Shown piece after piece: positions 9,369-24,596 of a stretch of 64,000 nucleotides of DNA. The translations under genes and the position numbers were made by a program. The notes below the pieces were generated by a model that ran no database searches, was not told the origin of the DNA, and saw only the letters and a program-made list of their open reading frames with translations. Numbering within the stretch: the stretch's first letter is position 1; each line of letters starts with the position of its first letter. This DNA is from Alitabrizicola rongguiensis (GTDB lineage Bacteria > Pseudomonadota > Alphaproteobacteria > Rhodobacterales > Rhodobacteraceae), in NCBI RefSeq assembly GCF_021491355.1, contig NZ_JAKENF010000002.1:1054001-1118000 (forward strand), given 5' to 3'.

Positions 9369-9629
9369 ATGTCAAGCAATGCCACCTGCTCGGACATGTT
9401 CACCCTGCGCGGCGATCTCGGCGCGCCTTCATTCTTGCCGTGGATCGCGCGCCATGCCGGCAGGCTTGGCATCATCGGAAGGGTAACAGCGGCCAGCGCT
9501 GATGAGGTGAGTCTGCTTGTAGAAGGCCCCCCCGATCTGGTCGATGCGATGGAACTGGGCGTTTCGCTCGGCCCGATCGACGTTTGGGTGGAGTCGATCA
9601 AACGCGAGCGCCTCCTCTCGCGACCCTGA
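9369..9629 (+). CDS. Acylphosphatase-like protein lacking the catalytic residues
   Basis: This 86-residue protein aligns by pattern with acylphosphatases: FLPWIARHAGRLGIIGRV corresponds to the usual FRxWVxxxAxxLGLxGWV, followed by VSLLVEGPPDLVDAM and a late DVWVESI strand. The catalytic arginine position (FR in the family) is leucine here and the catalytic asparagine after GWV is absent. The protein is therefore probably a non-catalytic ferredoxin-like-fold relative. The ATG at 9369 has a GGGGG site upstream. The GACCC-tgac-GGGTC dyad at the end of the gene is a weak hairpin. The function is unknown, and it is not clearly part of the following operon. Confidence 0.6.
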   Translation: MSSNATCSDMFTLRGDLGAPSFLPWIARHAGRLGIIGRVTAASADEVSLLVEGPPDLVDAMELGVSLGPIDVWVESIKRERLLSRP

Positions 9630-9775: not shown

Positions 9776-10441
9776 GTGCAGAACGATAGCCGGGGACAGA
9801 CACCTCAAATGCCGCAAAACTGGACAGCCGTGGCCCTATCTCGCGACGTGCCGCCACAGGTCGTCATTCCTACGTTCGTCGACGGGCGCGAACTCGCCGT
9901 TTGGCGCAGCCAGTCGGGCCGCATTGCCGCCTGGGATGACCGTTGTCCGCATCGAGGCATGCGCCTTTCCCACGGCTTCGTCCGGGGCGAGTCGCTTTCC
10001 TGCATCTACCATGGCTGGAGCTACAACGAGGCGGGACTTTGCCAACGCATCCCTGCCCATCCTGATCTCGTGCCGCCGGAGGCGATCCGTGTACCAACCG
10101 TCGCCGCTGTCGAGTCCGACGGTATCATCTGGGTCGCTTCAGAGCCCGCCAGCCAGCCACCGCCAACGCTAACCGGCCTCGTCGCGCTGCGGTCGCTGAC
10201 CGTCGAGGCACCGGCCACCGCAATCGCCACGGCGGCCGGAATGCCGATCGACCAGGATGGAGCGCTGCGTCCCGATCTGGCCGGCATCGCCTGCGTGCTG
10301 CTCGTGCAGCCGATTCCGGGCGACAGGACGGTACTGCATGTGCTGGTCGCATCGAATGCGTCCCCGGCCGCGCAGGCCGCTGTGTCCCGCGCCCTGGAAG
10401 ATCTCCGCCGTAGGGTTGAAAGCGAAAGGCTGGCCGCATGA
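9776..10441 (+). CDS. Stand-alone Rieske [2Fe-2S] protein, NdmD N-terminal-like
   Basis: This 221-residue protein has one complete Rieske motif, C57-x-H59 (CPHRG) and C76-x2-H79 (CIYHGW), in the ring-hydroxylating-oxygenase style. The C-terminal part of about 110 residues is poorly conserved and has no reductase or ferredoxin domain. A GTG start at 9776 fits the frame, and ATG 9809 is an alternative. It overlaps the next gene by 4 nt. That gene encodes an oxygenase catalytic subunit lacking a Rieske cluster, so this protein most likely supplies the cluster in trans. In the caffeine pathway this role is played by the N-terminal Rieske domain of NdmD, whose C-terminal reductase part is missing here. 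Confidence 0.75.
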   Translation: MQNDSRGQTPQMPQNWTAVALSRDVPPQVVIPTFVDGRELAVWRSQSGRIAAWDDRCPHRGMRLSHGFVRGESLSCIYHGWSYNEAGLCQRIPAHPDLVPPEAIRVPTVAAVESDGIIWVASEPASQPPPTLTGLVALRSLTVEAPATAIATAAGMPIDQDGALRPDLAGIACVLLVQPIPGDRTVLHVLVASNASPAAQAAVSRALEDLRRRVESERLAA

Positions 10442-11283
10442 CCGACACACCGATGCTCAACGAATGGTATCCGGTCGGCATCCTGACCCAACTGACCAAG
10501 GCCGGCCGTGATACGCTGCTCATGGGCGAAGCGATCAACGTTGCTTGCGACAGTTTGGGCGCGCCGGTTGTCAGCGCAGAAGATGGCCGCACCCTGCCGG
10601 TGCGCGCCCGCTACGGCCATGTCTGGACCTCGCTCGGGTCTCCGACGAAGGAACTCTTCGACATTCCCGAGGCCGATCAGCCCGGCCGCCGCCTTGTCGA
10701 TGTGGGCGTCGTGCGGGTGAAATGCTCGCCGCTTCGCGCCGTCGAAAACTTCCTCGACATCGCGCATTTCCCTTTCGTCCATACCGACATCCTCGGCGCC
10801 GAACCCCATACCGAGGTCCAGCGCTACGAGGTGCAGATCCGCGAGGAGGTGGACGAGGTCTGGGCGACCAAGGTGAAATTCTACCAGCCGCAGGCAGCGA
10901 AATCGGCCGCAGGGGGGATCACGACCGATTACATGTACCGGGTTCCGGCGCCGACCGTCTCGATCCTGTACAAGACCTGCCCGCCGCGCCCCGGCGAATG
11001 GGATGTCATCACCCTGTTCGTGCAGCCGATGGCCGAAGACCTGTGCCAGGTCTGGCCGTGGATGGCGCTGTTCGATGACCAGACGCCGATGACCGACCTC
11101 ATCCATTTCCAGCAGATGATCTTCCTGCAGGACCGCTCAATCCTGGAGAACCAGCTGCCACGGCTGCTCCCGCTGGACCCAGGAATGGAGATCCCGACAC
11201 GCGCCGACATGACCTCGGTCGCCTATCGCCGCTGGCTGAAGCGCCACGGCTTCACCTATGGCGCGCAACTGGTGGCGGCATGA
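10438..11283 (+). CDS. Rieske-less non-haem iron oxygenase catalytic subunit, NdmC-like
   Basis: The start MLNEWYPVG and the later YGHVWTSLG are standard Rieske-oxygenase landmarks. The segment between them (residues about 30-58) is short and has no CxH or CxxH, so the Rieske cluster is missing. The mononuclear iron site is intact: ENFLDIAHFPFVH gives H110 and H115, and FLQDRSILENQ gives D232 as third ligand. NdmC, the 7-methylxanthine N7-demethylase subunit of Pseudomonas putida CBB5, has this same architecture and works with NdmD and the GST-like NdmE. Here a Rieske protein gene lies directly upstream and a GST-like gene directly downstream, both with 4-nt overlaps. The substrate is inferred, and a methylated purine is the leading candidate. 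Confidence 0.7.
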   Translation: MTDTPMLNEWYPVGILTQLTKAGRDTLLMGEAINVACDSLGAPVVSAEDGRTLPVRARYGHVWTSLGSPTKELFDIPEADQPGRRLVDVGVVRVKCSPLRAVENFLDIAHFPFVHTDILGAEPHTEVQRYEVQIREEVDEVWATKVKFYQPQAAKSAAGGITTDYMYRVPAPTVSILYKTCPPRPGEWDVITLFVQPMAEDLCQVWPWMALFDDQTPMTDLIHFQQMIFLQDRSILENQLPRLLPLDPGMEIPTRADMTSVAYRRWLKRHGFTYGAQLVAA

Positions 11284-11939
11284 TCCTGTACGATTACATC
11301 CTCAGCCCAGACTGCTACAAGGTGCGCCTGCTGGCCGCGCTGACCGGGGCGAGGATCACGCTGCGCCCCGTCGATTTTCACCCCGGCGGTGAGCACAAGA
11401 CCGCGCCGTTTCTGGCGATGAACCCCTCTGGCACCATCCCGATCTTCGAGGATGACGGGCTGATCCTGACGGAATCCTCGGCGATCCTGACCTATCTTGC
11501 CGCCAAGGCCGGGCCTGCATGGCTCGGCGACGACACGCCGGCGATGCGGGGACGGGTGGCGCAATGGCTGGCCTTCTCGCAGCGCCTGTCGGCCTCAATC
11601 GGCAAGGCCCGCGTCCATGACATGCTGAACAAGCCCGCCGATATCCAGGCCTGCCGCAGGGCCGGCACCCAGTGCCTGCGCGAGATCGAGGCGGCGCTGG
11701 TCGAGCAGCGGCTGGCGGGACACGCCTTCCTTGCGGGCGATCGCCCGACCATCGCCGACATCGCCTGTTTCCCGCATTCGATGCTGGCGCCCGACGGTGG
11801 CATCTCGGTCGATCCTTATCCGTCAATCCGGCTCTGGACCCGGTCGATCCGGGCACTGCCGGGCTTCATCGAGATGCCGGGCATCCACCGCCTGCACGAC
11901 CTCAAGCCCGAACCGGGCCCGATCCCGGAGCGGGTGTGA
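11280..11939 (+). CDS. Glutathione S-transferase-like protein, NdmE-like
   Basis: This 219-residue protein has a thioredoxin-like N-terminal half (YDYILSPDCYKVRL at the start, then NPSGTIPIFEDDGLILTES with the conserved SGTIP and ES) and a helical C-terminal GST half (LAGDRPTIADIACFP). The usual N-terminal catalytic Ser/Tyr/Cys is not certain, although S9 and C11 are close. It overlaps the oxygenase gene by 4 nt. In the NdmCDE system a GST-like protein (NdmE) acts as a structural link between the catalytic and Rieske proteins, which would explain the tight linkage here. A genuine glutathione transferase remains possible. Confidence 0.7.
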   Translation: MILYDYILSPDCYKVRLLAALTGARITLRPVDFHPGGEHKTAPFLAMNPSGTIPIFEDDGLILTESSAILTYLAAKAGPAWLGDDTPAMRGRVAQWLAFSQRLSASIGKARVHDMLNKPADIQACRRAGTQCLREIEAALVEQRLAGHAFLAGDRPTIADIACFPHSMLAPDGGISVDPYPSIRLWTRSIRALPGFIEMPGIHRLHDLKPEPGPIPERV

Positions 11940-13309
11940 TGCCGAACTACCTGTTTCGCGGCTGCGCGGCTGTTGTCACCGATCCCGGTGCGGCGGACGG
12001 CGTGCTGCGCGACGTGAATCTGCTGACGGAAGGCCCGGCGATCCGCGCCATCGGCCGCGATCTGGTGGCGCCCGCCGGAACCGAGGTGATCGACGCACGC
12101 GGCTGGTTCCTGTACCCCGGCCTCGTCAACACCCACCATCACTTCTTCCAGTGTTTCGTGCGTAACCGGGCAGAGCTGGACTGGACGAAGCTTTCGGTCA
12201 TCGAATGGCTCGACCTGATCTACCCGATCTTTTCACGCCTGACCGAGGAGTGTTTCTACCATTCCTCGCTGACCGCGATGGCAGAACTGGCCAAGCACGG
12301 CTGCACAACCGCTTTCGACCACCAGTACAACTTCCCCCGCCATGCCGGGAAACGCATCGTCGACCGCCAGTTCGAGGCGGCCGGGAAGATCGGCCTGCGC
12401 TTTCATGCCGGGCGGGGCGGGAACACCCTGCCGAAGTCGGAAGGCTCGACCATCCCCGATGCGATGCTGGAGACGACCGACGAGTTCATTGCCGACTGCG
12501 CGCGCCTGATCGACGCCTACCACGACGCGTCGCCCTTCGGCCTGCGGCAGGTCGTGGTGTCGCCCTGCCAGCCGGTCAACTGCTACCGCGAGACCTTCAC
12601 GGAATCTGTGGCGCTGGCACGTGACAAGGGCGTGTTCCTGCATACCCATGTCGGCGAGGGCGAAAGCCCTGTGATCGCGGCGCGCCACGGGATGCGGACG
12701 GTGGATTACCTTGAGGAAATCGGCTTTGCCGGGCCGGACACCTTCTATGCCCATTGCTGGGAACTGACGCATGACGAACTGCGCAAGATGGCGGCGTCGG
12801 GCACCGGCGTCGCCCATTGCCCCGAGCCGGTCTATCTGGTGGGCGCAGAAGTGACGGACATCCCGGCGATGGCGGCTTTCGGGCTGCGGGTGGGCCTCGG
12901 CTGCGACGGTTCGGCGTCGAACGACAATTCGAACCTGATGCACTGCGTCCATTCCGCCTACATGCTGCAATGCCTTGCCGCCTCGACCCGCGCCCATCCG
13001 GTGCCGGAGCCGCGCGATTTTCTCGCTTATGGGACAACTGGGGGCGCCGCCCTTCTGGGGCGCAGCGACATCGGCCGTCTGGCGCCCGGCATGGCGGCTG
13101 ACCTTTTTGCCATCGACAGCCGGCGGATGGACTATGTCGGCACAAGGCACGACCCGGCGAGCCTGATCCCCAAGGTCGGCATCGGCATGGCGACCGACCT
13201 GACGATGGTCAACGGACGGATCGTCTGGGCCAAGGGGGAGTTCCCCGGCCTTGACGAGGCGCAGATGGCGGCCGAGGCCGAAGCTGCGCTGGCAACGATA
13301 AACCTCTGA
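11939..13309 (+). CDS. Oxopurine (8-oxoguanine/guanine-type) deaminase, amidohydrolase superfamily
   Basis: This 456-residue protein belongs to the TrzA/8-oxoguanine-deaminase branch of amidohydrolases. Metal-site and catalytic motifs are present: NTHHHFFQ after strand 1, HTHVGEGES, the HCWELTHDE stretch, and GCDGSASNDNSNL, the latter typical of 8-oxoguanine deaminases. The ATG overlaps the upstream stop codon as TGATG. Members of this branch deaminate 8-oxoguanine, guanine derivatives, isoxanthopterin or related heterocycles. In this operon it could convert an imported modified guanine (for example 7-methylguanine) to the matching xanthine before oxidation. That last step is inference. Confidence 0.75.
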   Translation: MPNYLFRGCAAVVTDPGAADGVLRDVNLLTEGPAIRAIGRDLVAPAGTEVIDARGWFLYPGLVNTHHHFFQCFVRNRAELDWTKLSVIEWLDLIYPIFSRLTEECFYHSSLTAMAELAKHGCTTAFDHQYNFPRHAGKRIVDRQFEAAGKIGLRFHAGRGGNTLPKSEGSTIPDAMLETTDEFIADCARLIDAYHDASPFGLRQVVVSPCQPVNCYRETFTESVALARDKGVFLHTHVGEGESPVIAARHGMRTVDYLEEIGFAGPDTFYAHCWELTHDELRKMAASGTGVAHCPEPVYLVGAEVTDIPAMAAFGLRVGLGCDGSASNDNSNLMHCVHSAYMLQCLAASTRAHPVPEPRDFLAYGTTGGAALLGRSDIGRLAPGMAADLFAIDSRRMDYVGTRHDPASLIPKVGIGMATDLTMVNGRIVWAKGEFPGLDEAQMAAEAEAALATINL

Positions 13310-13332
13310 AAAAGCGCAACAGGAGAGCCCAG

Positions 13333-14418
13333 ATGATCGACAGACGCACCTTCCTTCAGACCACCGCCCTTGGCGCCATCGCCGCCGCGATCGGCGCGCG
13401 TGCCCATGCGGCCGAGCCGCTCGGCATCGCGCTGATCCTGCCGTCGCCGAATGGCGATGTGGGTTGGTCGCACAGCCTCGTCGCAGGCCTCGACCCCGTG
13501 AAGGCCGCCTATGGCGACGCGGTCAAGATCACCATCGTCGAGAACATCCCCGAAGGCCCGGATGCTGACCGGATCATGAACAAGGCCGTGGCAGACGGGA
13601 ACAAGGTCCTGATCGCCGGTTCCTTCGGATACCAGAACGGCGCGATGCAGATCGCCAAGCGCGATCCCTCGGTCACGGTCCTGCATGCTTCGGGCTTCAT
13701 GGTCGCCCCGAACTTCTCGCCCTTCGCGGCCAAGTATTTCCAGGGCACCTACCTGATGGGCATGGCCGCCGCCGCGCTGTCGAAATCCGGCAAGCTCGGC
13801 TCGGTCTCGGCCTTTGCCATTCCGGAACTCATCACATCGATCAACGCCTTCACCCTTGGTGCGCAGGCGGTGAACCCGAACATCGAGGTTTCCGTGGTTT
13901 GGGTGAACTCGTGGTTCGACCCGGCCAAGGAACAGGAAGCCGCCAAGGCGCTGCTGGCGCAGGGCTGCGACGTGATCTTCTCGAACGCGCAGGACACGCC
14001 TTCGGTCATTTCGGTCTGCGAGGAAGCGGGCGTTCCCTCGTTCAACCTCAACTCCTCGATGAAGTCCTACGCACCCAAGACCTACCTCGGCTGCGTCGCC
14101 ACCGACTGGTCGCCCTTCTTTAAGGCCTCCGTCGATGCCCATGTCGCCGGAACCTTCCAGGGGGCGAACGCCTTCCTCGGCGTAGCGGACAAGGTAGTCG
14201 AGGTGGTGGACTGGAGCCCGAACGTGCCCGCCGATCTGATGGCCAAGATCAAGGAAGTCGAAGCCACGATCGCCGATGGCAGCTTCTCGCCCTTCACCGG
14301 CCCGATCACGAAGGCCGACGGCAGCGAAGGCGTCGCGGCCGGCACTACCCTGACCGACGATCAGATCGTCGCGATGGACTGGCATGTGAAGGGCGTGGCC
14401 ACGCCGCTGCCGCAGTAA
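13333..14418 (+). CDS. BMP/Med-family periplasmic binding protein for nucleosides or nucleobases
   Basis: A twin-arginine signal (R4, R5 in IDRRTFLQ, then a hydrophobic Ala/Gly-rich segment ending AHA) leads into a periplasmic-binding fold of the PnrA/BmpA family, with segments such as FSPFAAKYFQGTYLMGMAA and NSWFDPAKEQEAAKALL. These lipoprotein or soluble receptors bind purine nucleosides or nucleobases. The start follows an AGGAG site 23 nt after the deaminase gene, and the ATPase gene follows 5 nt downstream. The partner ATPase and two permeases are encoded next, giving a complete importer. Confidence 0.85.
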   Translation: MIDRRTFLQTTALGAIAAAIGARAHAAEPLGIALILPSPNGDVGWSHSLVAGLDPVKAAYGDAVKITIVENIPEGPDADRIMNKAVADGNKVLIAGSFGYQNGAMQIAKRDPSVTVLHASGFMVAPNFSPFAAKYFQGTYLMGMAAAALSKSGKLGSVSAFAIPELITSINAFTLGAQAVNPNIEVSVVWVNSWFDPAKEQEAAKALLAQGCDVIFSNAQDTPSVISVCEEAGVPSFNLNSSMKSYAPKTYLGCVATDWSPFFKASVDAHVAGTFQGANAFLGVADKVVEVVDWSPNVPADLMAKIKEVEATIADGSFSPFTGPITKADGSEGVAAGTTLTDDQIVAMDWHVKGVATPLPQ

Positions 14419-14423
14419 CGCTC

Positions 14424-15944
14424 ATGCCCGCGCCGCTTCTGTCCCTTCGCGGAATGACCAAGAGCTATGGTCAGGTCCGAGCCAACCGGGGCATCGACCT
14501 CGACGTGGCTCCGAACTCGATCCATGCGATCCTGGGCGAAAACGGCGCGGGCAAGTCCACGTTGATGAAGCTGATCTATGGGGTTGAACAACCTGACGAG
14601 GGGCAAGTGTTCTGGCAGGGACAGCCTGTTCGCCTGAGTTCGCCCGCCGAGGCACGGCGCCACGGGATCGGCATGGTGTTCCAGCACTTCTCGTTGTTCG
14701 AGACGCTGACTGTTGTCGAGAACATCTCGCTGATCGTGCCGGGAACGAAGCCCGAACTCGCGCGACGCATTCGGGCGCTCGGGCAGGATTTCGGGCTCGA
14801 AGTCGATCCGTCGGCCCATGTCCATTCCCTGTCTGTCGGCGAAAGGCAGCGGGTCGAGATCATCCGCTGCCTGATGACCGAACCGAAACTCCTGATCCTT
14901 GACGAGCCGACCTCGGTCCTGCCGCCGCAATCGGTGGGCCTTCTGTTCGACACCCTCCGGAGGCTGCGCGATACTGGCGTGTCGATCCTGTTCATCTCGC
15001 ACAAGCTCGACGAGATCCATTCGATCTGCGATCGGGCCACCGTGCTGCGGGCTGGTCAGGTGACGGGCAATATCGACCCGCGCGAGCATGATGCCCATGA
15101 GTTGGCGCGCATGATGATCGGACGTGACATGCCGCCGCCCCTTCACGCCGATATCCGCCCCGTGGGCGAGAAACGGCTGGAACTGGCCGGTCTCGACCAT
15201 GTCGAGGACGACCCCTTCGCCGTTTCGCTGCACGGGGTCAGCCTGACGGTCCATGCGGGCGAGATCGTGGGGATCGCCGGCATCTCGGGCAATGGTCAGG
15301 CGGAACTCGCGCGGCTGATCTCGGGCGAGACGCGCCTGGCAGACGGCGAGCGCGACGAGGTGCGGATGATGGATCAGGGCGTCGCCCATCTTGGACCGGC
15401 CGAGCGACGGGCACTAGGCTTTGCCTTTGTCCCCGAAGACCGGCTGGGGCGGGGTGCGGTGCCCGAAATGTCGCTGGCCGACAACAGCCTGCTCACCGCC
15501 CATCCACTTGGTCTGCTGCGTCATGGATTCATCGACCGCATGAAGGAGGCCGAGTTCACCGCCGCCTGCATCAAGGATTTTGACGTCCGGACGCCGGGGC
15601 CTGAGGCCGAGGCCGGCGCGCTTTCGGGGGGCAACCTTCAGAAGTTCATCGTAGGGCGCGAGATCCTCCTGAGGCCGAAGCTCCTTTTCGTCGCACAACC
15701 TACCTGGGGCGTGGATATCGGCGCGGCGACTGCGATCCGCCAGCGCCTGATCGCCATGCGCAACGAAGGCGTGGCCGTGCTGGTGATCTCCGAGGAACTG
15801 GAAGAATTGTTCGAGATCTGCGACCGGATCCAGGTCCTGCACAAGGGACGGCTTTCTCCTTCCCTCGACCCGCGGACATCAGGACCCGAAGAGATCGGCC
15901 GCTACATGATCGGCGCAAACGTTCCGGCCAGCGAGGTCGCCTGA
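14424..15944 (+). CDS. Nucleoside/nucleobase ABC transporter ATPase (two ABC domains)
   Basis: This 506-residue protein has two ABC domains. The first has Walker A GENGAGKST and signature LSVGERQRVEI. The second has a degenerate Walker A (GISGNGQAE) and signature LSGGNLQKFIVGREI. This layout is standard for the BMP-linked nucleoside importers (YufO/NupA type) and for ribose-type systems. It lies between the binding-protein and permease genes, and its stop codon overlaps the permease ATG as TGATG. It energises the importer that probably feeds the deaminase and oxygenase encoded upstream. Confidence 0.85.
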   Translation: MPAPLLSLRGMTKSYGQVRANRGIDLDVAPNSIHAILGENGAGKSTLMKLIYGVEQPDEGQVFWQGQPVRLSSPAEARRHGIGMVFQHFSLFETLTVVENISLIVPGTKPELARRIRALGQDFGLEVDPSAHVHSLSVGERQRVEIIRCLMTEPKLLILDEPTSVLPPQSVGLLFDTLRRLRDTGVSILFISHKLDEIHSICDRATVLRAGQVTGNIDPREHDAHELARMMIGRDMPPPLHADIRPVGEKRLELAGLDHVEDDPFAVSLHGVSLTVHAGEIVGIAGISGNGQAELARLISGETRLADGERDEVRMMDQGVAHLGPAERRALGFAFVPEDRLGRGAVPEMSLADNSLLTAHPLGLLRHGFIDRMKEAEFTAACIKDFDVRTPGPEAEAGALSGGNLQKFIVGREILLRPKLLFVAQPTWGVDIGAATAIRQRLIAMRNEGVAVLVISEELEELFEICDRIQVLHKGRLSPSLDPRTSGPEEIGRYMIGANVPASEVA

Positions 15945-17029
15945 TGTTCGTCCTGCCTCGCCTCATTCGCCGGGAGCGAGCATCGGCCCGGATGGCCGTT
16001 CTGGCGCCCATCATCGCCATTGCGGCAGCCGTCACTGTGAACCTGATTCTCTATCTCGTCATGGGCAAGAACCCAGGCGCAGTCTTCCACGCGATGCTGC
16101 TCGAGCCGTTCATGTCGTGGGCGTCCTTCTCGGAGGTGCTGCTGAAGACCGGGCCGCTTCTGCTGATCGCACAGGGCCTTGCCATCGGTTTCCGCGCCAA
16201 GGTTTTCAACATTGGGGCCGAGGGGCAGTTCATCCTCGGCGCGATCTTTGCGTCTGCCATCCCGGTCTGGTTTCCGCAGGCAACGGGCGGCTGGATCTGG
16301 CCGGCGATGCTGATCCTTGGGGCGATTGGCGGGGCGCTCTGGGCCGTGATCCCGGCTTTCTGGCGGGTGCGGCTCAACGCCAATGAGATCCTCGTCACGC
16401 TGATGATGAGCCTGATCGCCGCTCAGGTGCTCAATTACCTTTTGCTCGGCCCGTGGAAAGATCCGAAGGGCTTCAATTTCCCGCAGTCGGTCATGTTCCA
16501 GTATGACGCGATGGTCCCGATCCTTATCCCGGGCACTCGGGTGAATGTCTCGCTCCTGATCGCGCTTGTGTCGGCCATCCTCGCCTGGGTCTTCATGCAG
16601 AAGAGCTTTCGGGGCTACCAGTTCCTGGTCGGGGGTCTCGCACCCAGGGCGGCCGCATATGCCGGCTTCTCGGAAGCCCGCGCGATCTGGCTGTCGCTAC
16701 TGATCGGCGGATTCGCGGCCGGTCTGGCCGGGGCAGCCGAAGTTGCCGGGCCGATCGGACAGCTCCAGCGTTCGATCTCGACGGGCTATGGCTATGCCGC
16801 GATCATTGTCGCCTATCTCGGCGGGCTCCACCCGATCGGGATCGTTGCTTCGTCGCTTCTTATGGCGGTCCTCTATATCGGCGGGGACAATGCAATGGTC
16901 TCGGCTGACCTGCCGGTTGCGGCCGTGCGGGTCTTCCAGGGAAGTCTTCTGGTCTTCTACCTCGCCGCCACGACCTTCGTCCGCTACCGGCTTGACATCG
17001 GACATGATGCGAAGGGGGGCACGCCATGA
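15944..17029 (+). CDS. Nucleoside/nucleobase ABC transporter permease 1
   Basis: This 361-residue integral membrane protein has the BPD_transp_2 pattern of YufP/NupB-type permeases: KVFNIGAEGQFILGAIFA near residue 85 and RLNANEILVTLMMSLIAAQ near residue 145. It overlaps the second permease gene by 4 nt (ATGA). Two non-identical permeases are normal for BMP-type importers. Confidence 0.85.
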   Translation: MFVLPRLIRRERASARMAVLAPIIAIAAAVTVNLILYLVMGKNPGAVFHAMLLEPFMSWASFSEVLLKTGPLLLIAQGLAIGFRAKVFNIGAEGQFILGAIFASAIPVWFPQATGGWIWPAMLILGAIGGALWAVIPAFWRVRLNANEILVTLMMSLIAAQVLNYLLLGPWKDPKGFNFPQSVMFQYDAMVPILIPGTRVNVSLLIALVSAILAWVFMQKSFRGYQFLVGGLAPRAAAYAGFSEARAIWLSLLIGGFAAGLAGAAEVAGPIGQLQRSISTGYGYAAIIVAYLGGLHPIGIVASSLLMAVLYIGGDNAMVSADLPVAAVRVFQGSLLVFYLAATTFVRYRLDIGHDAKGGTP

Positions 17030-17937
17030 ACGGGATCGAGTTCATCCTGGCCAACATGCTGGCCGCCGCCACACCCTTTCTTCTGGCGGCTCTGGGCGAG
17101 CTTGTCGTTGAACGGTCAGGGGTTCTGAACCTCGGGATCGAGGGGATCATGGCGCTCGGCGCAGTCATCGCCTTCATCATCGTGTATCATGGCGGAAGCC
17201 ATGCCGTGGCCTTCCTTGGCGCAGGCTTTGCTGGGGCTTGCCTCTCGCTCATCTTCGGTGTTCTGGCACTTGGCTTCCGCGCGAACCAGGTCGCTGTCGG
17301 ACTTGCCATCGGCATTCTCGGTCAGGGTCTTTCGGCGCTGATCGGCAACTCCTACGAAGCACTGACCGTCACAGGGCTGTCGAAGATCACCCTGCCGGGC
17401 CTTTCGTCCATCCCAGTGATCGGCGGACTGTTCACCCAGGACGCCATCGTCTGGCTGTCCCTTGTCGCGACGCTGGCCGTGTGGGGCATGTTCCGATTCA
17501 CCCGGCTGGGTCTGGTGATCCGGGCTGTGGGCGAGAACCCGAAGGCCGCGCATGCCATCGGCTATCCGGTCATCGCCCTGCGCTATGGCGCGATCCTTTT
17601 CGGCGGTGCGATGGCAGGCCTGGCGGGCGCCTATGCGGCAACGGTCTATACGCCACTCTGGGCCGACGGAATGATTGCCGGCCGCGGCTGGATCGCGCTG
17701 GCCTTGGTGGTGTTCGGAACCTGGATGACTGGCCGTGTCTTCTTCGGCGCATTGCTGTTCGGGGCTGTCTCCCTGGGCGGTTTGGCCGCACAGGCCCAGG
17801 CTGTGCCGCTGAACTCGCAACTCCTGTCGAGCCTGCCCTATATCGTCACGATCGTGGTTCTGGGGATCATCTCGTCCAACCGGCGACTGCTGAAGATCAA
17901 CGGTGTCGCATCCCTCGGCGAACCCTACGAACGCTGA
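17026..17937 (+). CDS. Nucleoside/nucleobase ABC transporter permease 2
   Basis: This 303-residue membrane protein of the YufQ/NupC type has GVLNLGIEGIMALGAVIAF near residue 31 and ALGFRANQVAVGLAIGILGQGLSALIG near residue 80, cut here only for description. It is the last gene of the operon and is followed after 23 nt by a strong bidirectional terminator. No uric-acid or xanthine oxidation genes are present downstream, so later steps must be encoded elsewhere. Confidence 0.85.
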   Translation: MNGIEFILANMLAAATPFLLAALGELVVERSGVLNLGIEGIMALGAVIAFIIVYHGGSHAVAFLGAGFAGACLSLIFGVLALGFRANQVAVGLAIGILGQGLSALIGNSYEALTVTGLSKITLPGLSSIPVIGGLFTQDAIVWLSLVATLAVWGMFRFTRLGLVIRAVGENPKAAHAIGYPVIALRYGAILFGGAMAGLAGAYAATVYTPLWADGMIAGRGWIALALVVFGTWMTGRVFFGALLFGAVSLGGLAAQAQAVPLNSQLLSSLPYIVTIVVLGIISSNRRLLKINGVASLGEPYER

Positions 17938-18724: not shown

Positions 18725-20635
18725 TCAGGCGGGGTTGGCGACTTGCTGTTCCTCGCGAAGATCCTCGTAACGCTCGAAGGCGGAGGTAAAGCGCGCCGTC
18801 CCACGGGTGGTGCTGGCCAGCGCCTGGTAGAGCTCCTGCTCAGCGGATTCCGGAAGCAAGGCTTCGAAAACGTCCCAGCCTGCTGCCTCGCTGTCGCCCT
18901 TGAAGCCAAGAACCTGACCGTGAAGCCCCGAAATCAGGGGGACGAGAGCCCCGGAATAAATCGAGGGAACCTCGATCCTGATGCGGCTGATCGGCTGCAG
19001 GACGCGCGTGCCAGCTTCGGCCATCGCCTCGCGCAGGGCATTCTTGCCGGCCGTGCGGAAGGCGAAGTCGGAACTGTCCACCGAATGATGCTTGCCGTCC
19101 TTCAGGGTCACGGCGATGTCGATCACGGGATGCCCGTGTGGCCCCTCGGCCAGAGCATCTCTGGCGCCTGCTTCTACAGAAGGAATGTAGTTGCGGGGGA
19201 CTGCGCCTCCCTTGACCTGCTCGTCGAAGCGGAATCCGGCGCCTCGCTCCAGCGGCGCGGCCTCGATCAGGACATCGGCGAATTGCCCTGCCCCGCCCGA
19301 CTGCTTTCGATGGCGATGGTGCTTTTCGATCGGTCGGGCAAGCGTCTCGCACAGGGCGCGGGGTACTGCTCCGGTTTCGACTTTCACGCCAAACAGGGTA
19401 TCCAGAAGCTCGATAACCTTGCGTAGGTGCAAAGGCCCCTGGCAGCACAGGATCATCCGGCCGCTTTGCGGGTCCTGTCGGGTCGATAGGCCGGGGTCGA
19501 TCTCCATCAGCCGACCCAATGCGGACGACAGCCGAGCCTCGTCCCGCTCGTTGAGAGGGGAAATCACGCTGCGATAGGGTGCACCGGGTGCCGCAGCCCA
19601 TTCGGGCGAGGCAAGAGTTCCGTCCTTGCCATAAATGGGTGAGGTCAGGGTCAGGTGGTCAGACTTCACGGTTATGGCGATGGAACCGGCGGGAACGGGC
19701 CCCATCGGGGTCTTTCCATCCAGATCGACAAGGCTTCCCACCGAGCCCCCGGCCAGTCGCTGACCGGCCGCCATGCCATCGGCAAGGGCGCGGATCAGCA
19801 CGGTCTTTCCCAGATGCTTGGCGTTGTCCGCGAAGGCCCCCACAGCCAGACCGCCCCCTAGCCTGTCGCGCAGCGCATCAACCTTCGGTACCTCGTGTCG
19901 GAGCGACTTCATCAGTCGAAGCAAACCGTTGCCGTGGGCTGCAGAACCCATCAGGGCCGGAACAAGGTCGTGATGCTGAAGAACCCGCGTTGCCACATCA
20001 TAAAGTTCTGCGGCGAGGGGCTTCTTGTCCTCGATCAGCTCTTCCAGAAGCGTGTCGTCGAAATCGGCGAGGTGATCGAGCAGTTCGGACCGCGCCTTTT
20101 GCTCGCCTTCGCGCATCCCTGCCGGTATCTCGACCAGCGAAGACCGCTTTCCTTCGTGATATTCCCAGGCACGTTCCGAAATCAGATCGACCGCGCCCAC
20201 AATCCTGCGCCCCTCCATCATCGGGATCTGCCGCAGCACGATGGCATGGGCACAATAGGCCTGTAGCGCGGCGACGACGTCACTGATCCGGTCGGTCGCG
20301 GCATCGATCTTGTTCAGGAAGATGAAGGTCGGCAGGCCTGCCGCCTCGAGCAGCCGCAGATACGGCGCGGCAAGGACTGCGGCATCGGTTTCCGCCGTCA
20401 CGCAAAGAACCGCGGCATCGCTGGCGGCAAGGGCCGATGGCAGAAGCGGCAAGTTCTGGATTCCGCCCGGGCAATCCAGAATGGCCCAATCCTCCGACAT
20501 GAACTGGAACCGGGAAACGGCGGCTTCGCCGTAGAATCCGGATCGTTGCGGTCGCTCGGTTTCCAGCCCTGCCAAGGCTTGAGACAACGTGGTCTTCCCG
20601 GTGTGCGACGGGCCAAGGACCGAAACGACTCTCAT
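18725..20635 (-). CDS. Elongation-factor-G-like GTPase with altered G motifs
   Basis: The 636-residue protein has the EF-G order of domains: a GTPase domain (1-250), a beta-barrel, domain III/V ferredoxin folds and a domain IV stretch (HHRHRKQSGGAGQFADV; VPRNYIPSVEAGARDAL). G1 is GPSHTGKT, G4 is NKID, but G3 reads DCPGG where translational GTPases have DTPGH, so the catalytic histidine is missing. It is about 60 residues shorter than true EF-G. A GGAGG site precedes the ATG. Such EF-G-like proteins (often labelled FusA-like or EF-G type II) occur beside cyanophycin or stress genes, and their role is unsettled. It is divergent from cyanophycinase. Confidence 0.75.
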   Translation of the reverse strand: MRVVSVLGPSHTGKTTLSQALAGLETERPQRSGFYGEAAVSRFQFMSEDWAILDCPGGIQNLPLLPSALAASDAAVLCVTAETDAAVLAAPYLRLLEAAGLPTFIFLNKIDAATDRISDVVAALQAYCAHAIVLRQIPMMEGRRIVGAVDLISERAWEYHEGKRSSLVEIPAGMREGEQKARSELLDHLADFDDTLLEELIEDKKPLAAELYDVATRVLQHHDLVPALMGSAAHGNGLLRLMKSLRHEVPKVDALRDRLGGGLAVGAFADNAKHLGKTVLIRALADGMAAGQRLAGGSVGSLVDLDGKTPMGPVPAGSIAITVKSDHLTLTSPIYGKDGTLASPEWAAAPGAPYRSVISPLNERDEARLSSALGRLMEIDPGLSTRQDPQSGRMILCCQGPLHLRKVIELLDTLFGVKVETGAVPRALCETLARPIEKHHRHRKQSGGAGQFADVLIEAAPLERGAGFRFDEQVKGGAVPRNYIPSVEAGARDALAEGPHGHPVIDIAVTLKDGKHHSVDSSDFAFRTAGKNALREAMAEAGTRVLQPISRIRIEVPSIYSGALVPLISGLHGQVLGFKGDSEAAGWDVFEALLPESAEQELYQALASTTRGTARFTSAFERYEDLREEQQVANPA

Positions 20636-20895
20636 GGAACCAACCTCCTCGTCTGATGCAACGTCTGGCTGAGCGGGACTCAGATTGGTCCGTTCAGCTT
20701 AAACCGGCTTCGAAAGATTAGAACCGGGAATCTCGCGGGTGCGTCGTCAACGACCATTCACCTAATCGCTTGCGAGGCCACCCGCCTTTCGCCATGGTTG
20801 CTTCATGTGGGGGGCGGAACGTCTTTCAAGGGGCGTGGCCGCGTTTTGGGGGAACTGCAGCTGGCCGATATGGCCAATCCGGGAAATCGTTCGGC

Positions 20896-21768
20896 ATGTC
20901 TCCTGCCCCGCTCAGCGCTAACGCTCCACGTGGCTTCATCATCCCTATCGGAGGTGGCGAGGATCGTCTTAAGGAGCGCCATATCCACCGGCGCTTCGTC
21001 GATCTGTCCGGCGGCGCTGGAGCAGACATCGTCGTTATTCCCACGGCGTCAGAACTCGAAACGACCGGACAGGATTACAATCGCATCTTCCGCGAACTCG
21101 GGGCGGCGCAGGTTGATTTCCTGCCGATCACGCGCCGTGCCGATTGCGAGAATCCGCGCTATCTCGAGATGCTCGACCGGGCGACCGGCATCTTCCTCAC
21201 CGGCGGCAACCAGCTGCGCCTTTCCACCATCCTGGGCGGAACGGGAATTGCCCAGAAGATCCGCCGCCGGAATGCAGCAGGCGTCCATGTCGCGGGGACC
21301 TCTGCGGGGGCCTCGATCATGTCCGAGCACATGATCGCAGGAGGCGAAAGCTATTCTTCCCCGGTCGAAGGGGCCGTTAGCCTCGCCCCCGGCCTCGGGC
21401 TGACCAATGCCGTCATCATTGACCAGCACTTCACCCAAAGGAACCGGCTCGGGCGGCTGCTGTCGGCGTCGTCCTACAATCCTTTCCTGATCGGCCTAGG
21501 AATTGATGAGGATACGGCTGCTTTCATCGGCCCTGACGGCGTCTTTGAAGTGGTGGGATCAGGAACGGTCACGGTCGTTGATGCCTCGGAACTTACCCAT
21601 TCCTCGATGTGGGAGGCCCGCCCCGGGCAGGCGCTTACCCTTCTTGGCCTCAAGGTTCATGTCATGGGCGAAGGCTGCCGCTACGACCTGAACGGACGCC
21701 ATGCCTTCGCGCCCGACGCTCATGCCGCGTTCTGCTCTTTGCCAAACGACTTGACCCGCACTCACTGA
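20896..21768 (+). CDS. cphB: Cyanophycinase
   Basis: This 290-residue serine exopeptidase of the S51-like cyanophycinase family has GFIIPIGGGEDRL at the start, the FLTGGNQLRL loop and the nucleophile motif GTSAGAS at about residue 136. It cleaves cyanophycin (multi-L-arginyl-poly-L-aspartate) to beta-Asp-Arg dipeptides. I placed the start at ATG 20896, since the open frame upstream (to 20770) lacks family sequence. It is followed 29 nt later by cyanophycin synthetase, so breakdown and synthesis are encoded together. The protein has no signal peptide and acts in the cytoplasm. Confidence 0.9.
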   Translation: MSPAPLSANAPRGFIIPIGGGEDRLKERHIHRRFVDLSGGAGADIVVIPTASELETTGQDYNRIFRELGAAQVDFLPITRRADCENPRYLEMLDRATGIFLTGGNQLRLSTILGGTGIAQKIRRRNAAGVHVAGTSAGASIMSEHMIAGGESYSSPVEGAVSLAPGLGLTNAVIIDQHFTQRNRLGRLLSASSYNPFLIGLGIDEDTAAFIGPDGVFEVVGSGTVTVVDASELTHSSMWEARPGQALTLLGLKVHVMGEGCRYDLNGRHAFAPDAHAAFCSLPNDLTRTH

Positions 21769-21797
21769 CCCCAACCCAGCAGGAAGGAGAAACGCCC

Positions 21798-24593
21798 GTG
21801 AAGATCGTCTCGACCAATGTGTTTGTCGGTCCGAACGTTTGGGCGGGATTTCCCGTCATCCGGCATGTCGTTGATCTGGGTGTTCTTGAAGACTGGCCAT
21901 CGGCACGACTGGGTGATGCATGGATCGAAGGGCTGATCGAGGCGCTGCCCGGCCTGCGCGAGCACGGCTGTTCCTATCGTGAGCCGGGCGGGCTGATCCG
22001 GCGGCTGCGTGAAGGGGAAGGGACGTGGCTTGGCCATGTTGCCGAGCATGTCGCGCTCGAGATTCAGGGCGTCGCCGGATCCGACGTGACTTTCGGGCGG
22101 ACACGGGGCACCGGGGTGCCGGGGCAATACAACCTCGTCTACGAATACCGCCAGCGGGACGTGGGGCTCGACGCGGGCCGGCTGGCGATCAAGCTTCTGA
22201 TGCATCTTCTGCCGGAACAGGTGAAGAAGCTTACGGATTACGAGTATGACCCGGAGTTCGACTTTGCTGCCGAGCTGAAAAGCTTTGTCCTGTCGGCGCA
22301 GCGCCGCGAATTCGGGCCCTCGACCGCCTCGCTGGTCAAGGCAGCAGAAGAGCGGGACATCCCCTGGATCCGGCTGAACAACAATTCGCTCGTGCAGTTC
22401 GGCCACGGCAAGTTCCAGCAGCGGATCCAGGCGACGATCACCAGCCAGACCAAGCATATCGCCGTGGAAATCTCCTGTGACAAGGAAGACACCCACAATA
22501 TGCTGAACGATCTTGGCCTGCCGGTGCCGCAGCAGCGCCTCGTCTATTCTCCGGCCGAGGCGATCCGGGCGGCGAAGCGGATCGGATATCCCGTTGTGGT
22601 CAAGCCGCTTGACGGCAACCACGGGCGGGGCGTGTCGATCAACCTGACCGAGGATGCACAGATCGAGGTCGCCTTTGCCGAGGCAAAGGCCCAATCGAAA
22701 AGCCGCGGCATCCTTGTCGAGCAGTTCGTGACTGGCATGGACCACCGCATGCTTGTCGTGAACGGCGAACTCGTGGCGGTGGCCAAGCGCGTGCCCGGCC
22801 ATGTGGTCGGCGACGGCAAACACACCATTGCCCAACTGGTCGACATCGTGAACCAAGACCCGCGCCGCGGGATCGGGCATGAGAAGGTGCTGACGAACCT
22901 GGAGCTTGACGCACAGGCGGAACGGCTGATGGCGGATGCCGGGCATACCGCCGAGACCGTGCTGCCCAAGGGCGAGGTCTTCTACCTGCGCTCGACCGCG
23001 AACCTGTCGACCGGTGGCACGGCGATCGACATGACCGACGTCTGCCATCCCGACAACAAGGACATGGCCGAGCGGACGATCAAGGCGGTTGGATTGGACG
23101 TCGGCGGAGTGGACTTCCTGACCGCCGACATCACCAAAAGCTACAAGGAAATCGGCGGCGCGATCGTCGAGGTGAATGCCGCACCGGGCTTCCGCATGCA
23201 TGTCGCCCCATCCGAGGGCAAGCCGCGCGATGTGTCGGGCAAGGTGATGGATATGCTCTTCCCACCCGGCACCCAATCGCGCATCCCGATCGCCGCGATC
23301 ACTGGGACAAACGGCAAGACCACGACCAGCCGGATGCTCGCCCATATCATGAAGTCGAGCGGCAAGATCGTCGGCATGACCTCGACCGACGGGGTCTATG
23401 TCGACGGAAAGCTGACGGTGAAGGGCGACATGACCGGGCCTGCTTCGGCCCAGATGGTGCTGCGCGATCCGTCCGTGGATTTCGCGGTGATGGAGACGGC
23501 GCGGGGCGGGCTTGTCCGCTCGGGCCTCGGCTACCAGCGCTGCGACGTGTCGGCCTGCCTGAACGTGGCCTCGGACCATCTCGGGATGGGCGGGATCAAC
23601 ACGCTTGAGGAACTGGCTATCGTAAAGCGCGTCGTGGTCGAAACGGCGACCGACACGGTCGTGCTCAACGCAGACGACATGCACTGCCTGCGCATGGCCG
23701 ATTTCTGCCACGCGAGCCACATCTGCTATGTGACGATGAACTCCGACCATCCGCTGGTGAAGGAGCACATTCGGGCGGGCGGTCGGGCCGTCGTTCTGGA
23801 AAAAGCCATGAACGGCGACATGATCACCATCTATTCCAAGGGCCTGCACCTGCCGGTCCTCTGGTCGCACCTCATCCCGGCGACACTTGAGGGCAAGGCG
23901 CTCTACAACGTGCAGAATGCCATGTTCGCCTGCGCGATGGCCTTCGCCTTCGGGCTGGACCTCGACAACATCCGCCACGGGCTGCGGACCTTCGACACAA
24001 GCTTCTTCCAGGCGCCGGGGCGGACGAACGTCTATGATGAACATCCGTTCAAGGTGATCCTCGACTACGGTCACAACCCGGCGGCCATCGCGGCGATGGC
24101 GGGACTCGCTGACCGGCTGGACGTGAAGGGCCGCCGCCTGGTCGTGGCTGCAATGCCTGGCGACAGGCGCAACGAAGACATCGTCGCTGCGGGCAAGGAG
24201 CTCGCGGGGCATTTCGACCACTATTTCCTCAAGCCCGACGACGACCGCCGCGGTCGGGGTGAAATGGAGGTGCCGCAGATGCTGCGCGAGGTGCTTCTCG
24301 CCGCAGGCGTCAAGGAGACCCAGATCACCCTGATGACCAGCGAGGTAGAGGCCATCGACCGCGCGCTCGAATCCGCTCTTCCGGGAGACCTGCTGGTCGT
24401 CTTCGCCGACGAGCTGACCCGGTCGTGGAAACAGATCATCTACTTCAAGAAGGCCGAGCGCGAAGCCGCCGCTGTAACGCCGGTCAAGAGCGAACCGAGC
24501 GTCGGCTTCGAAGAGCTGCTGGCCGGTGGTGACACTCTGATCCGCGACGAGCGCGGGGTCCGTCTTGCGCGGGGGGGCGAGGAAGGCGACTGA
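21798..24593 (+). CDS. cphA: Cyanophycin synthetase
   Basis: This 931-residue enzyme makes the Asp-Arg polymer cyanophycin from ATP, aspartate and arginine. It shows the expected order: an N-terminal CphA domain (to about 160), an ATP-grasp domain (about 190-480, beginning at the FGPSTASLVKAAEERDIPW region), and a Mur-ligase-like domain with P-loop GTNGKTTTSRM near residue 503 and a C-terminal DYGHNPAAIAAM stretch. The start is a GTG preceded by AGGAAGGAG. The gene lies between cyanophycinase and a CphA paralogue that begins 3 nt after its stop codon, so the three form one operon. Confidence 0.92.
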   Translation: MKIVSTNVFVGPNVWAGFPVIRHVVDLGVLEDWPSARLGDAWIEGLIEALPGLREHGCSYREPGGLIRRLREGEGTWLGHVAEHVALEIQGVAGSDVTFGRTRGTGVPGQYNLVYEYRQRDVGLDAGRLAIKLLMHLLPEQVKKLTDYEYDPEFDFAAELKSFVLSAQRREFGPSTASLVKAAEERDIPWIRLNNNSLVQFGHGKFQQRIQATITSQTKHIAVEISCDKEDTHNMLNDLGLPVPQQRLVYSPAEAIRAAKRIGYPVVVKPLDGNHGRGVSINLTEDAQIEVAFAEAKAQSKSRGILVEQFVTGMDHRMLVVNGELVAVAKRVPGHVVGDGKHTIAQLVDIVNQDPRRGIGHEKVLTNLELDAQAERLMADAGHTAETVLPKGEVFYLRSTANLSTGGTAIDMTDVCHPDNKDMAERTIKAVGLDVGGVDFLTADITKSYKEIGGAIVEVNAAPGFRMHVAPSEGKPRDVSGKVMDMLFPPGTQSRIPIAAITGTNGKTTTSRMLAHIMKSSGKIVGMTSTDGVYVDGKLTVKGDMTGPASAQMVLRDPSVDFAVMETARGGLVRSGLGYQRCDVSACLNVASDHLGMGGINTLEELAIVKRVVVETATDTVVLNADDMHCLRMADFCHASHICYVTMNSDHPLVKEHIRAGGRAVVLEKAMNGDMITIYSKGLHLPVLWSHLIPATLEGKALYNVQNAMFACAMAFAFGLDLDNIRHGLRTFDTSFFQAPGRTNVYDEHPFKVILDYGHNPAAIAAMAGLADRLDVKGRRLVVAAMPGDRRNEDIVAAGKELAGHFDHYFLKPDDDRRGRGEMEVPQMLREVLLAAGVKETQITLMTSEVEAIDRALESALPGDLLVVFADELTRSWKQIIYFKKAEREAAAVTPVKSEPSVGFEELLAGGDTLIRDERGVRLARGGEEGD

Positions 24594-24596
24594 GCT

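Follow-up and report, generated by a model that had tools for sequence, protein, structure and literature searches.

A conserved operon joining a split Rieske oxygenase, an NdmH-type hydrolase and a BMP importer is a candidate pathway for N-methylated guanine bases

What might a bacterium consume with an operon that pairs a Rieske protein and a separate oxygenase subunit with a GST, an amidohydrolase and an importer? We addressed this question in a 64,000-nucleotide stretch of the Alitabrizicola rongguiensis genome (hereafter, the window). The original prediction had described these genes as a gapless operon at 9776-17937 on the forward strand, and we recovered all eight of them there, separated by at most 23 bases. 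We lean, with modest confidence and on sequence comparisons, toward an operon that breaks down N-methylated guanine bases and would import the base, hydrolyze it at C2, demethylate a ring nitrogen and pass xanthine onward. Domains were assigned by Pfam for the first six of the eight genes, and the two permeases were scanned against NCBIfam only. Together with an upstream gene, the features are as follows.

9369..9629, +, acylphosphatase-like small protein of 86 aa (weak PF00708)
9776..10441, +, lone Rieske protein of 221 aa, NdmD-like without the reductase (PF00355 Rieske)
10438..11283, +, NdmC-like oxygenase subunit without a Rieske cluster (PF19112 VanA_C)
11280..11939, +, NdmE-like GST (GST_N/GST_C)
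11939..13309, +, AtzB/NdmH-type amidohydrolase, predicted N2,N2-dimethylguanine hydrolase (Amidohydro_1; AtzB homology)
13333..14418, +, BMP-family periplasmic binding protein, predicted modified-guanine binder (PF02608 Bmp)
14424..15944, +, ABC transporter ATP-binding protein with two ABC stretches (ABC_tran x2)
15944..17029, +, ABC permease 1 (NF047929, 174 bits, below the cut-off of 400)
17026..17937, +, ABC permease 2 (NF047928, 161 bits, below the cut-off of 465)

Of 80 homologous loci that were fetched, 76 have the nine genes, including the acylphosphatase-like one, in the same order, which is more than chance. Each permease was found in 78 of the 80 loci, as was the acylphosphatase-like gene upstream of the Rieske gene. 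The product of this ninth gene matches PF00708 weakly (21.1 bits, where the cut-off is 22.5). We take columns 23 and 41 of its alignment, placed by eye from the family motif, to be the catalytic Arg and Asn positions, and neither residue occurs there in any of the 90 rows; the protein probably lacks acylphosphatase activity. The ninth gene (9369-9629) and the subtype of the amidohydrolase had both been overlooked in the original prediction. Here and below, residue counts cover the rows above the score limits set in the counting script.

The amidohydrolase is the most informative member of the operon. Its identity to AtzB is 56%, and the 13 active-site residues that have been named for NdmH are all present in it, located by shifting the published positions of poNdmH (Pleomorphomonas oryzae) uniformly by -2. 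These include the CQNN residues, the catalytic Q/E/H/D and the aromatic pocket residues, and each is kept in 93-94 of 94 hydrolases from these operons; CQNN, found in 94/94 rows, occupies the same four columns as SSII of AtzB. Eight of the 13 are common to 8-oxoguanine-deaminase-type controls (n=4), and the remaining positions (W83, N163, Q212, N215 and P298) differ in all four. Judged by these residues, the protein has the active site of an N2,N2-dimethylguanine hydrolase. The main-text parts of PMC13054789, published in 2026, describe NdmH enzymes as preferring N2,N2-dimethylguanine over guanine 150-3600-fold and as converting it to xanthine in one step; those parts gave us no genomic context for the enzymes and promise follow-up on it.

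The original prediction had called this protein a guanine-type deaminase. The conserved link to a guanine-type amidohydrolase stands, but the enzyme is neither an ordinary guanine deaminase nor an 8-oxoguanine deaminase. The best-scoring NCBIfam model, 8-oxoguanine deaminase (NF006055), gave 370 bits where 532 are required, and guanine deaminase (TIGR02967) gave 117.5 bits against 375.4. Genes outside the operon exceed both cut-offs, with 680 and 507 bits, respectively. Given the missed cut-off, the better-scoring gene elsewhere and the NdmH active site, 8-oxoguanine, one of the substrates initially suggested, is unlikely.

The three genes upstream of the hydrolase resemble NdmCDE, the 7-methylxanthine N7-demethylase complex of Pseudomonas putida CBB5 as presented in the portions of PMC4408171 drawn on here. 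As in that complex, the oxygenase lacks a Rieske cluster, the cluster resides on a second polypeptide, and a GST is the partner. All three proteins are homologous to NdmCDE-type proteins, with labels assigned from the gene content of the reference loci rather than from the CBB5 proteins themselves. The oxygenase is 43-46% identical to four NdmC-type proteins over 274-288 aa (the highest value being for the P. caffeinilytica CF1 plasmid), and the Rieske protein is 33-35% identical to NdmD-type N-terminal parts. The GST is 41-43% identical to two NdmE-type GSTs and 37% identical to an unannotated frame 3' of P. fulva ndmD. The comparison with NdmC, NdmD and NdmE originally proposed was thus well chosen, for NdmD in its Rieske part only.

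The metal ligands singled out beforehand are also conserved. The Rieske ligands C57, H59, C76 and H79 each occur in 123 of 124 aligned rows, the remaining row being a gap. In the oxygenase iron site (D107/H110/H115/D232), H110 and H115 are present in 132/132 aligned oxygenases and D232 in 131/132 (one gap row). Alignment A4 comprised 45 rows, made up of the window plus 44 of the 80 loci, and excluded L035, which has an internal stop in the Rieske frame and still counts among the 80; alignment A5 comprised 38 (the window plus 37 of the 80 loci). An AlphaFold model of the oxygenase was set aside (mean pLDDT 46), and the Rieske gene has an alternative ATG start at 9809. The last ~90 aa of the Rieske protein are probably the remnant of a catalytic domain of the oxygenase kind. 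Profile comparison matched this part to the catalytic domain of the oxygenase weakly (probability 55 over 32 columns); the better evidence is the whole-model structural match, in which the predicted Rieske protein (pLDDT 92) matches complete Rieske oxygenases with a TMq of about 0.7.

The operon also departs from NdmCDE. NdmD is a Rieske domain fused to a reductase, whereas the Rieske donor here is a separate 221-aa protein in which Pfam matched PF00355 alone, bearing out the expectation that the reductase half is missing. An NdmD-reductase search of the 80 fetched loci returned a single weak match (27% over 190 aa), and in L206-L218 none was found. The operon further includes the acylphosphatase-like gene and the amidohydrolase, and its oxygenase lies on a separate branch. 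In the oxygenase tree, built from 12 of the 80 scanned loci plus other loci after dropping hits below 70 bits or 200 aa (and omitting L145, L214, L217 and L218 as duplicates or fragments), the oxygenases of NdmH operons are separate from the fused-NdmD clade; the NdmH label does not form one clade, requiring 4 changes, and L216 stands apart. N7 specificity may not carry over to the oxygenase studied here.

The binding protein of the importer is nearest to a guanine binder, in line with the original proposal. The best PDB match of the BMP protein is AtzT (6pi5, E 2e-79), a BMP-family purine-binding protein that binds guanine (PMC6834077). Besides the fold family, it shares five of eight checked guanine-site residues with AtzT (S97, F98, E165, W194 and N218, kept in 93/93 rows). 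Unlike AtzT, it has W in place of Y45 and D in place of N220, with one inserted residue, in 93/93 rows, and S or T in place of N169. The BMP proteins of other modules mostly have W45 and D221 too. NCBIfam models for a putative vitamin-B6 transporter all scored below their cut-offs, and this identity was rejected.

The cluster is conserved in rhizobia and related bacteria; in Rhizobium johnstonii 3841, for instance, it comprises RL_RS29065 to RL_RS29105. Among 394 genomes of the family, 13 encode the hydrolase, and all 13 also encode the oxygenase; the genes lie together in 12 of them and are interrupted by contig ends in the other. Seventeen of the 394 have the oxygenase without the hydrolase, five of these with a guanine-deaminase-type gene nearby. 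In a plasmid collection, at identities of at least 60%, the hydrolase occurs in 128 records and the oxygenase in 125, counts that were not paired record by record. Across a class-wide sample of 385 genomes, the oxygenase was detected in 8 (E <= 1e-30), and the hydrolase query matched 13 (E <= 1e-80), where the window's own is the sole orthologue and the other matches are 36-41% identical.

Related loci offer a useful comparison. L190, L192 and L110 share the Rieske/oxygenase/GST trio and a BMP importer, but their amidohydrolase is of the TIGR02967 type rather than the NdmH type. Scored over BLAST-hit stretches, L110 passes the 375.4-bit cut-off with 390 bits, and L192, with 363, just misses it. 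In L190 and L192 the guanine-deaminase-type gene lies in the same gene run as the trio; L110 has three amidohydrolases and its Rieske/GST pair on the opposite strand. With the amidohydrolase swapped in L190 and L192, the target of the oxygenase should therefore be common to both types, that is, a ring position.

From the observed gene content, homology, active-site residues, conservation and co-occurrence, we infer the substrate, the order of steps, which ring nitrogen loses its methyl group, what the GST does and where the electrons come from. The BMP transporter would bring a methylated guanine base into the cell, where the NdmH-type hydrolase would remove the C2 substituent (as dimethylamine, or as methylamine or ammonia), giving xanthine or an N-methylxanthine. 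The NdmC-like subunit, with its separate Rieske donor and the GST as tether, would then oxidize a ring N-methyl group, most likely at N7, releasing formaldehyde and drawing electrons from a reductase encoded elsewhere. Xanthine would finally pass to the genome's xanthine dehydrogenase, which is present (1204 bits).

Several observations support this pathway: the NdmH residues, the homology to NdmC, the Rieske part of NdmD and NdmE, the guanine-type contacts of the BMP protein, the co-occurrence, the amidohydrolase swap and the xanthine dehydrogenase. In addition, a frmA-like gene (70%) adjoins the module in L203, a fused-ndmD relative, and the genome has one PF11927 (HODM_asu-like) gene, which we take to be a marker of dimethylamine use. 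Other observations count against it. The one-step NdmH reaction leaves the demethylase needless unless the real substrate carries another methyl group. The modules of L091 and L139 lack the hydrolase and importer, queries with frmA and fghA had no match in L206-L218, and apart from the one weak match no dedicated reductase was found in the 80 loci or in L206-L218; the separate placement of the oxygenase in the tree, the eight shared hydrolase residues and the W45 and D221 of other BMP proteins likewise weaken the case.

Among the alternatives, an unlikely one holds that two parallel routes share one importer, with NdmH serving N2-methylated guanines and the Rieske enzyme serving another purine, such as 7-methylxanthine. 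The NdmH reaction, complete by itself according to the main-text parts of PMC13054789, and the 17 genomes with the oxygenase alone agree with such a division, but among the 394 genomes the hydrolase was not found without the oxygenase, which suggests dependence; the plasmid counts were not paired by record. Rather improbable is the pathway originally proposed, in which the amidohydrolase converts 7-methylguanine to 7-methylxanthine and the NdmC-like enzyme yields xanthine. The NdmC homology and the guanine-deaminase-type genes of related modules make 7-methylguanine a possible substrate, but it is not the best fit given the NdmH active site, the published preference for N2,N2-dimethylguanine (main-text parts of PMC13054789) and the separate guanine deaminase.

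We consider it very unlikely that the Rieske enzyme hydroxylates purine C8, in the manner of HpxD or making 8-oxoguanine, with the amidohydrolase acting on an 8-oxo purine. In its favor, C8 and N7 are neighbors, one 29% match carries the annotation HpxD (Mo-cofactor-independent xanthine hydroxylase), and 8-oxoguanine deaminase is the top NCBIfam model. That model misses its cut-off, however, other genes of the genome encode an 8-oxoguanine deaminase and a xanthine dehydrogenase, five residues of the pocket are unlike those of 8-oxoguanine-deaminase-type proteins, and the nearest oxygenases of known reaction are demethylases. Xanthine C8 hydroxylation was rejected as a reason for the Rieske enzyme, the genome already having a xanthine dehydrogenase. 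A xenobiotic s-triazine pathway is scarcely credible, since despite the AtzB identity and AtzT being the closest solved binding protein, every row has CQNN rather than SSII, and the spread over many genera and the divergence suggest an origin older than herbicides.

If our favored pathway for N-methylated guanines holds, the operon would be a candidate genomic home for the NdmH activity, whose context its discoverers left for follow-up, and likewise for relatives of the rhizobial ndmCDE-like clusters, to which the portions of PMC4408171 drawn on here assign no function. These clusters had already been published; their pairing with this hydrolase was not found in the literature searches. The family that includes the herbicide-degrading enzyme AtzB gains a testable native setting, the split Rieske architecture gains a version without a fused reductase, and the operon points to bacteria, plant-associated ones among them, that feed on a modified nucleobase.

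A bolder version, doubtful as a whole, is a dedicated route for salvaging hypermethylated guanine, chiefly 2,2,7-trimethylguanine, the base that caps small nuclear RNAs and, in nematodes, trans-spliced mRNAs. NdmH would take dimethylamine off N2 to leave 7-methylxanthine, a known NdmCDE substrate, which the split Rieske enzyme would convert to xanthine. Literature searches linking trimethylguanine, a bacterial demethylase and xanthine, or 7-methylguanine, a bacterial deaminase and 7-methylxanthine, found none. In the same version, the atrazine gene atzB, and perhaps atzT as well, would have been recruited from this cluster as its original metabolic setting. The Rieske and oxygenase subunits would go back to a single full-length enzyme that was duplicated, each being a relic that complements the other, and the fusion seen in NdmD would have come later.

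The reading frames of the original prediction were borne out in the window, where eight genes lie on a single strand, overlapping or almost touching (gaps of at most 23 bases), with a smaller gene ahead of them:

9369-9629: small gene with weak resemblance to acylphosphatase, 146 bases before the eight genes
9776-17937, plus strand: genes for a Rieske protein, an oxygenase, a GST, an amidohydrolase ("the hydrolase"), a BMP-type binding protein, an ATPase and two permeases

The first six products of the eight matched the Pfam families Rieske, VanA_C, GST, Amidohydro_1, Bmp and ABC_tran. The catalytic residues usual for acylphosphatase are apparently absent from the small gene's sequence.

The hydrolase fell below the cut-offs of both the 8-oxoguanine deaminase model (370 bits, cut-off 532) and the guanine deaminase model (117.5 bits, cut-off 375.4). 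The window's genome carries a separate guanine deaminase (507 bits) and, adjoining it, a separate 8-oxoguanine deaminase (680 bits), each above its cut-off; these two genes are adjacent on opposite strands (locus L146, contig 6 of the window's genome, G000, 440600-443466). A plasmid search recovered an Arthrobacter pAD51 protein, annotated as an amidohydrolase and 56% identical to the hydrolase, which we identify as AtzB from its position near atzC. AtzB homologues are described in PMC13054789 as N2,N2-dimethylguanine hydrolases (NdmH), with active-site residues named for the Pleomorphomonas oryzae member (poNdmH). The window hydrolase has all 13 of these residues at a constant offset of -2, and AtzB has SSII in the four alignment columns that read CQNN in the operon hydrolases. 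Each residue is kept in 93 or 94 of 94 operon hydrolases, window included, and the missing ones look like a single incomplete row. Eight of the 13 are common to four 8-oxoguanine-deaminase-type controls, while W83, N163, Q212, N215 and P298 differ in all four; a fifth control, another amidohydrolase from the Rhizobium sp. BG6 locus L110, diverges more.

The three proteins upstream had been predicted to resemble the 7-methylxanthine demethylase NdmCDE, and comparison with reference loci, whose NdmC-, NdmD- and NdmE-type labels we assigned from gene content as the records are annotated by family only, revealed homology to all three components (43-46%, 33-35% and 37-43% identity). For the oxygenase, identity to the NdmC-type protein is 46% in P. 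caffeinilytica and 43-45% in P. fulva and S. meliloti. For the GST, the NdmE-type proteins of P. caffeinilytica and S. meliloti give 41-43% and the P. fulva one 37%. The P. caffeinilytica CF1 locus also groups two further Rieske oxygenases, a reductase, a GST, a formaldehyde dehydrogenase and an S-formylglutathione hydrolase. Three NdmD-type proteins match the Rieske protein with their N-terminal parts, in every case beyond the Rieske domain (to residues 194, 219 and 221); the Rieske protein thus corresponds to NdmD without its reductase, the half that the original prediction had reported missing. Searching for an NdmD-type reductase in the best 80 of 220 homologous loci gave one weak match (L095, 27% over 190 aa), and none was found in L206-L218, the loci from hydrolase-bearing genomes of the window's family. 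PMC4408171 describes NdmCDE and 18 further organisms with homologous, function-unassigned clusters, prominently Sinorhizobium and Mesorhizobium.

The predicted structure of the Rieske protein (pLDDT 92) resembles complete Rieske oxygenases, among them SxtT, GxtA, KshA and NdmA (query-length TM-scores of roughly 0.6-0.7), and this match suggests a reduced catalytic domain in its C-terminal part. The oxygenase retains at its N-terminus a Rieske-like stretch that lacks the cluster ligands (profile match over 41 columns, probability 97). Since each protein appears to keep a trace of the other's domain, the two look like complementary remnants of a single ancestral enzyme. In a 63-row oxygenase tree, whose root is uncertain because the outgroup branches are long, fused-NdmD loci formed one branch of 14 rows (support 95/86), of which 12 carry that label; one more row with the label, L105_1, is a distant paralogue. 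The window oxygenase fell in a 23-row set with 22 rows from NdmH operons (support 99/92). NdmH-operon rows L109 and L216 lie outside that set, and the NdmH label requires four changes on the tree. In L109 (Qingshengfaniella, 19670-23673), genes for a YcaQ-type DNA glycosylase, a GntR regulator, a flavin reductase and an allantoinase lie downstream of the operon.

The solved structures nearest to the binding protein are AtzT and a Brucella protein; according to the AtzT paper (PMC6834077), the latter binds purines and the former guanine (KD about 110 nM). Transferring AtzT residue numbers to the window protein through sequence alignment, we found the guanine-site residues S97, F98, E165, W194 and N218 in all 93 NdmH-operon BMP proteins. 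Across the same 93, Y45 is replaced by W throughout, N169 by S (88) or T (5), and N220 by D with an extra Q preceding. Among 15 BMP proteins from other modules, W45 and D221 each occur in 14 and are thus not specific to NdmH operons; E165 occurs in only 7 and N218 in only 2. This residue pattern fits a guanine-like base, without fixing which one.

To assess conservation, we scanned one genome per species, found 220 oxygenase relatives and called gene presence by script limits in the best 80, which are close kin: 79 bear rhizobial titles (Rhizobium, Rhizobiales bacteria, Mesorhizobium, Agrobacterium, Shinella, Ensifer, Mycoplana and similar) and one is a Rhodobacter MAG (L023, 94% identical). 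Among these best 80 of 220, the Rieske, oxygenase and GST genes occur in all 80 loci, the hydrolase in 79, and the acylphosphatase-like gene, BMP, ATPase and both permeases in 78 each; the complete nine-gene set is kept in order in 76. The exceptions are L040 and L095, where the acylphosphatase-like gene was not found, L091, without hydrolase and importer, and L070, where the contig ends. Plasmid pRL10 of R. johnstonii 3841 carries the same nine genes, annotated by family only. Within the window's genus, a close oxygenase (73-94%) occurs in three of seven genomes including the window's own (among 61 near relatives), and all nine genes were seen in the other two (L138, L145). Across 394 genomes of the window's family, the hydrolase was detected in 13 (E <= 1e-110) and the oxygenase in 30 (E <= 1e-50), including all 13 hydrolase genomes. 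The genes of the cluster lie together in 12 of the 13 (L206-L216 and the window), of which L213 and L216 gave no detectable acylphosphatase-like gene; in the thirteenth, contig ends interrupt the cluster (L217, L218). Separate counts in a plasmid collection, at 60% identity or more, gave 128 records for the hydrolase and 125 for the oxygenase. The acylphosphatase-like protein is a near-constant partner of the cluster, possibly a further subunit or chaperone.

The remaining 17 family genomes carry the oxygenase without the hydrolase. Four have a fused ndmC-ndmD-ndmE form (L200, L201, L203, L204), adjoined in L203 by a frmA match (70%). In five (L190, L192, L193, L196, L197), the retrieved stretch includes a gene whose product shares 55-62% identity with the third amidohydrolase of L110; scored over the BLAST-hit stretch, the L110 protein, at 390 bits, exceeds the TIGR02967 cut-off for guanine deaminase and that of L192, at 363 bits, falls just under it. 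In the other eight (L189, L191, L194, L195, L198, L199, L202, L205) our queries gave no amidohydrolase save a distant AllB-like match in L189; Rieske and GST queries were also without match in L195 and L205. Beyond the family, neither hydrolase nor importer accompanies the acylphosphatase-like, Rieske, oxygenase and GST genes of L139. L110, L196 and L197 are larger purine clusters: in L110 and L196 a Rieske/GST pair occurs with a BMP importer, three amidohydrolase-type genes and one (L110) or two (L196) oxygenases, and L197 has two oxygenases and two amidohydrolase-type genes. On a Leptolyngbya boryana plasmid (L111), a related, apparently unsplit Rieske oxygenase lies immediately behind a BMP-type importer.

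Because this oxygenase family is paired alternately with guanine-deaminase-type and dimethylguanine-hydrolase-type enzymes, the most parsimonious reading is that the C2 group falls to the hydrolase and a ring position to the oxygenase; homology to NdmC suggests that this position is N7. In the pathway we propose, the base would be imported by the BMP-type ABC transporter, hydrolyzed at C2 and oxidatively N-demethylated on the ring by the Rieske donor, oxygenase and GST, and the resulting xanthine would pass to xanthine dehydrogenase, which was found in the window's genome. That genome, and one of 14 control genomes, also has a PF11927 gene, which we take to be a marker of dimethylamine use; its product could consume the dimethylamine released. 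Both halves of the system, the split Ndm-type oxygenase and the NdmH-type hydrolase, are already known separately. Our literature search found no paper joining a dimethylguanine hydrolase with a Rieske/NdmC system, which is weak evidence as most subscription journals lay outside it.

Elsewhere in the window we observed:

18725-20635, minus strand: EF-G paralogue (712 bits, cut-off 513)
20902-26345: cyanophycinase, then two ORFs resembling, by eye, cyanophycin synthetase and a Mur-type ligase
32188-33324: second Rieske oxygenase, weakly glycine betaine monooxygenase-like, within a peptide/nickel-type ABC transporter cluster
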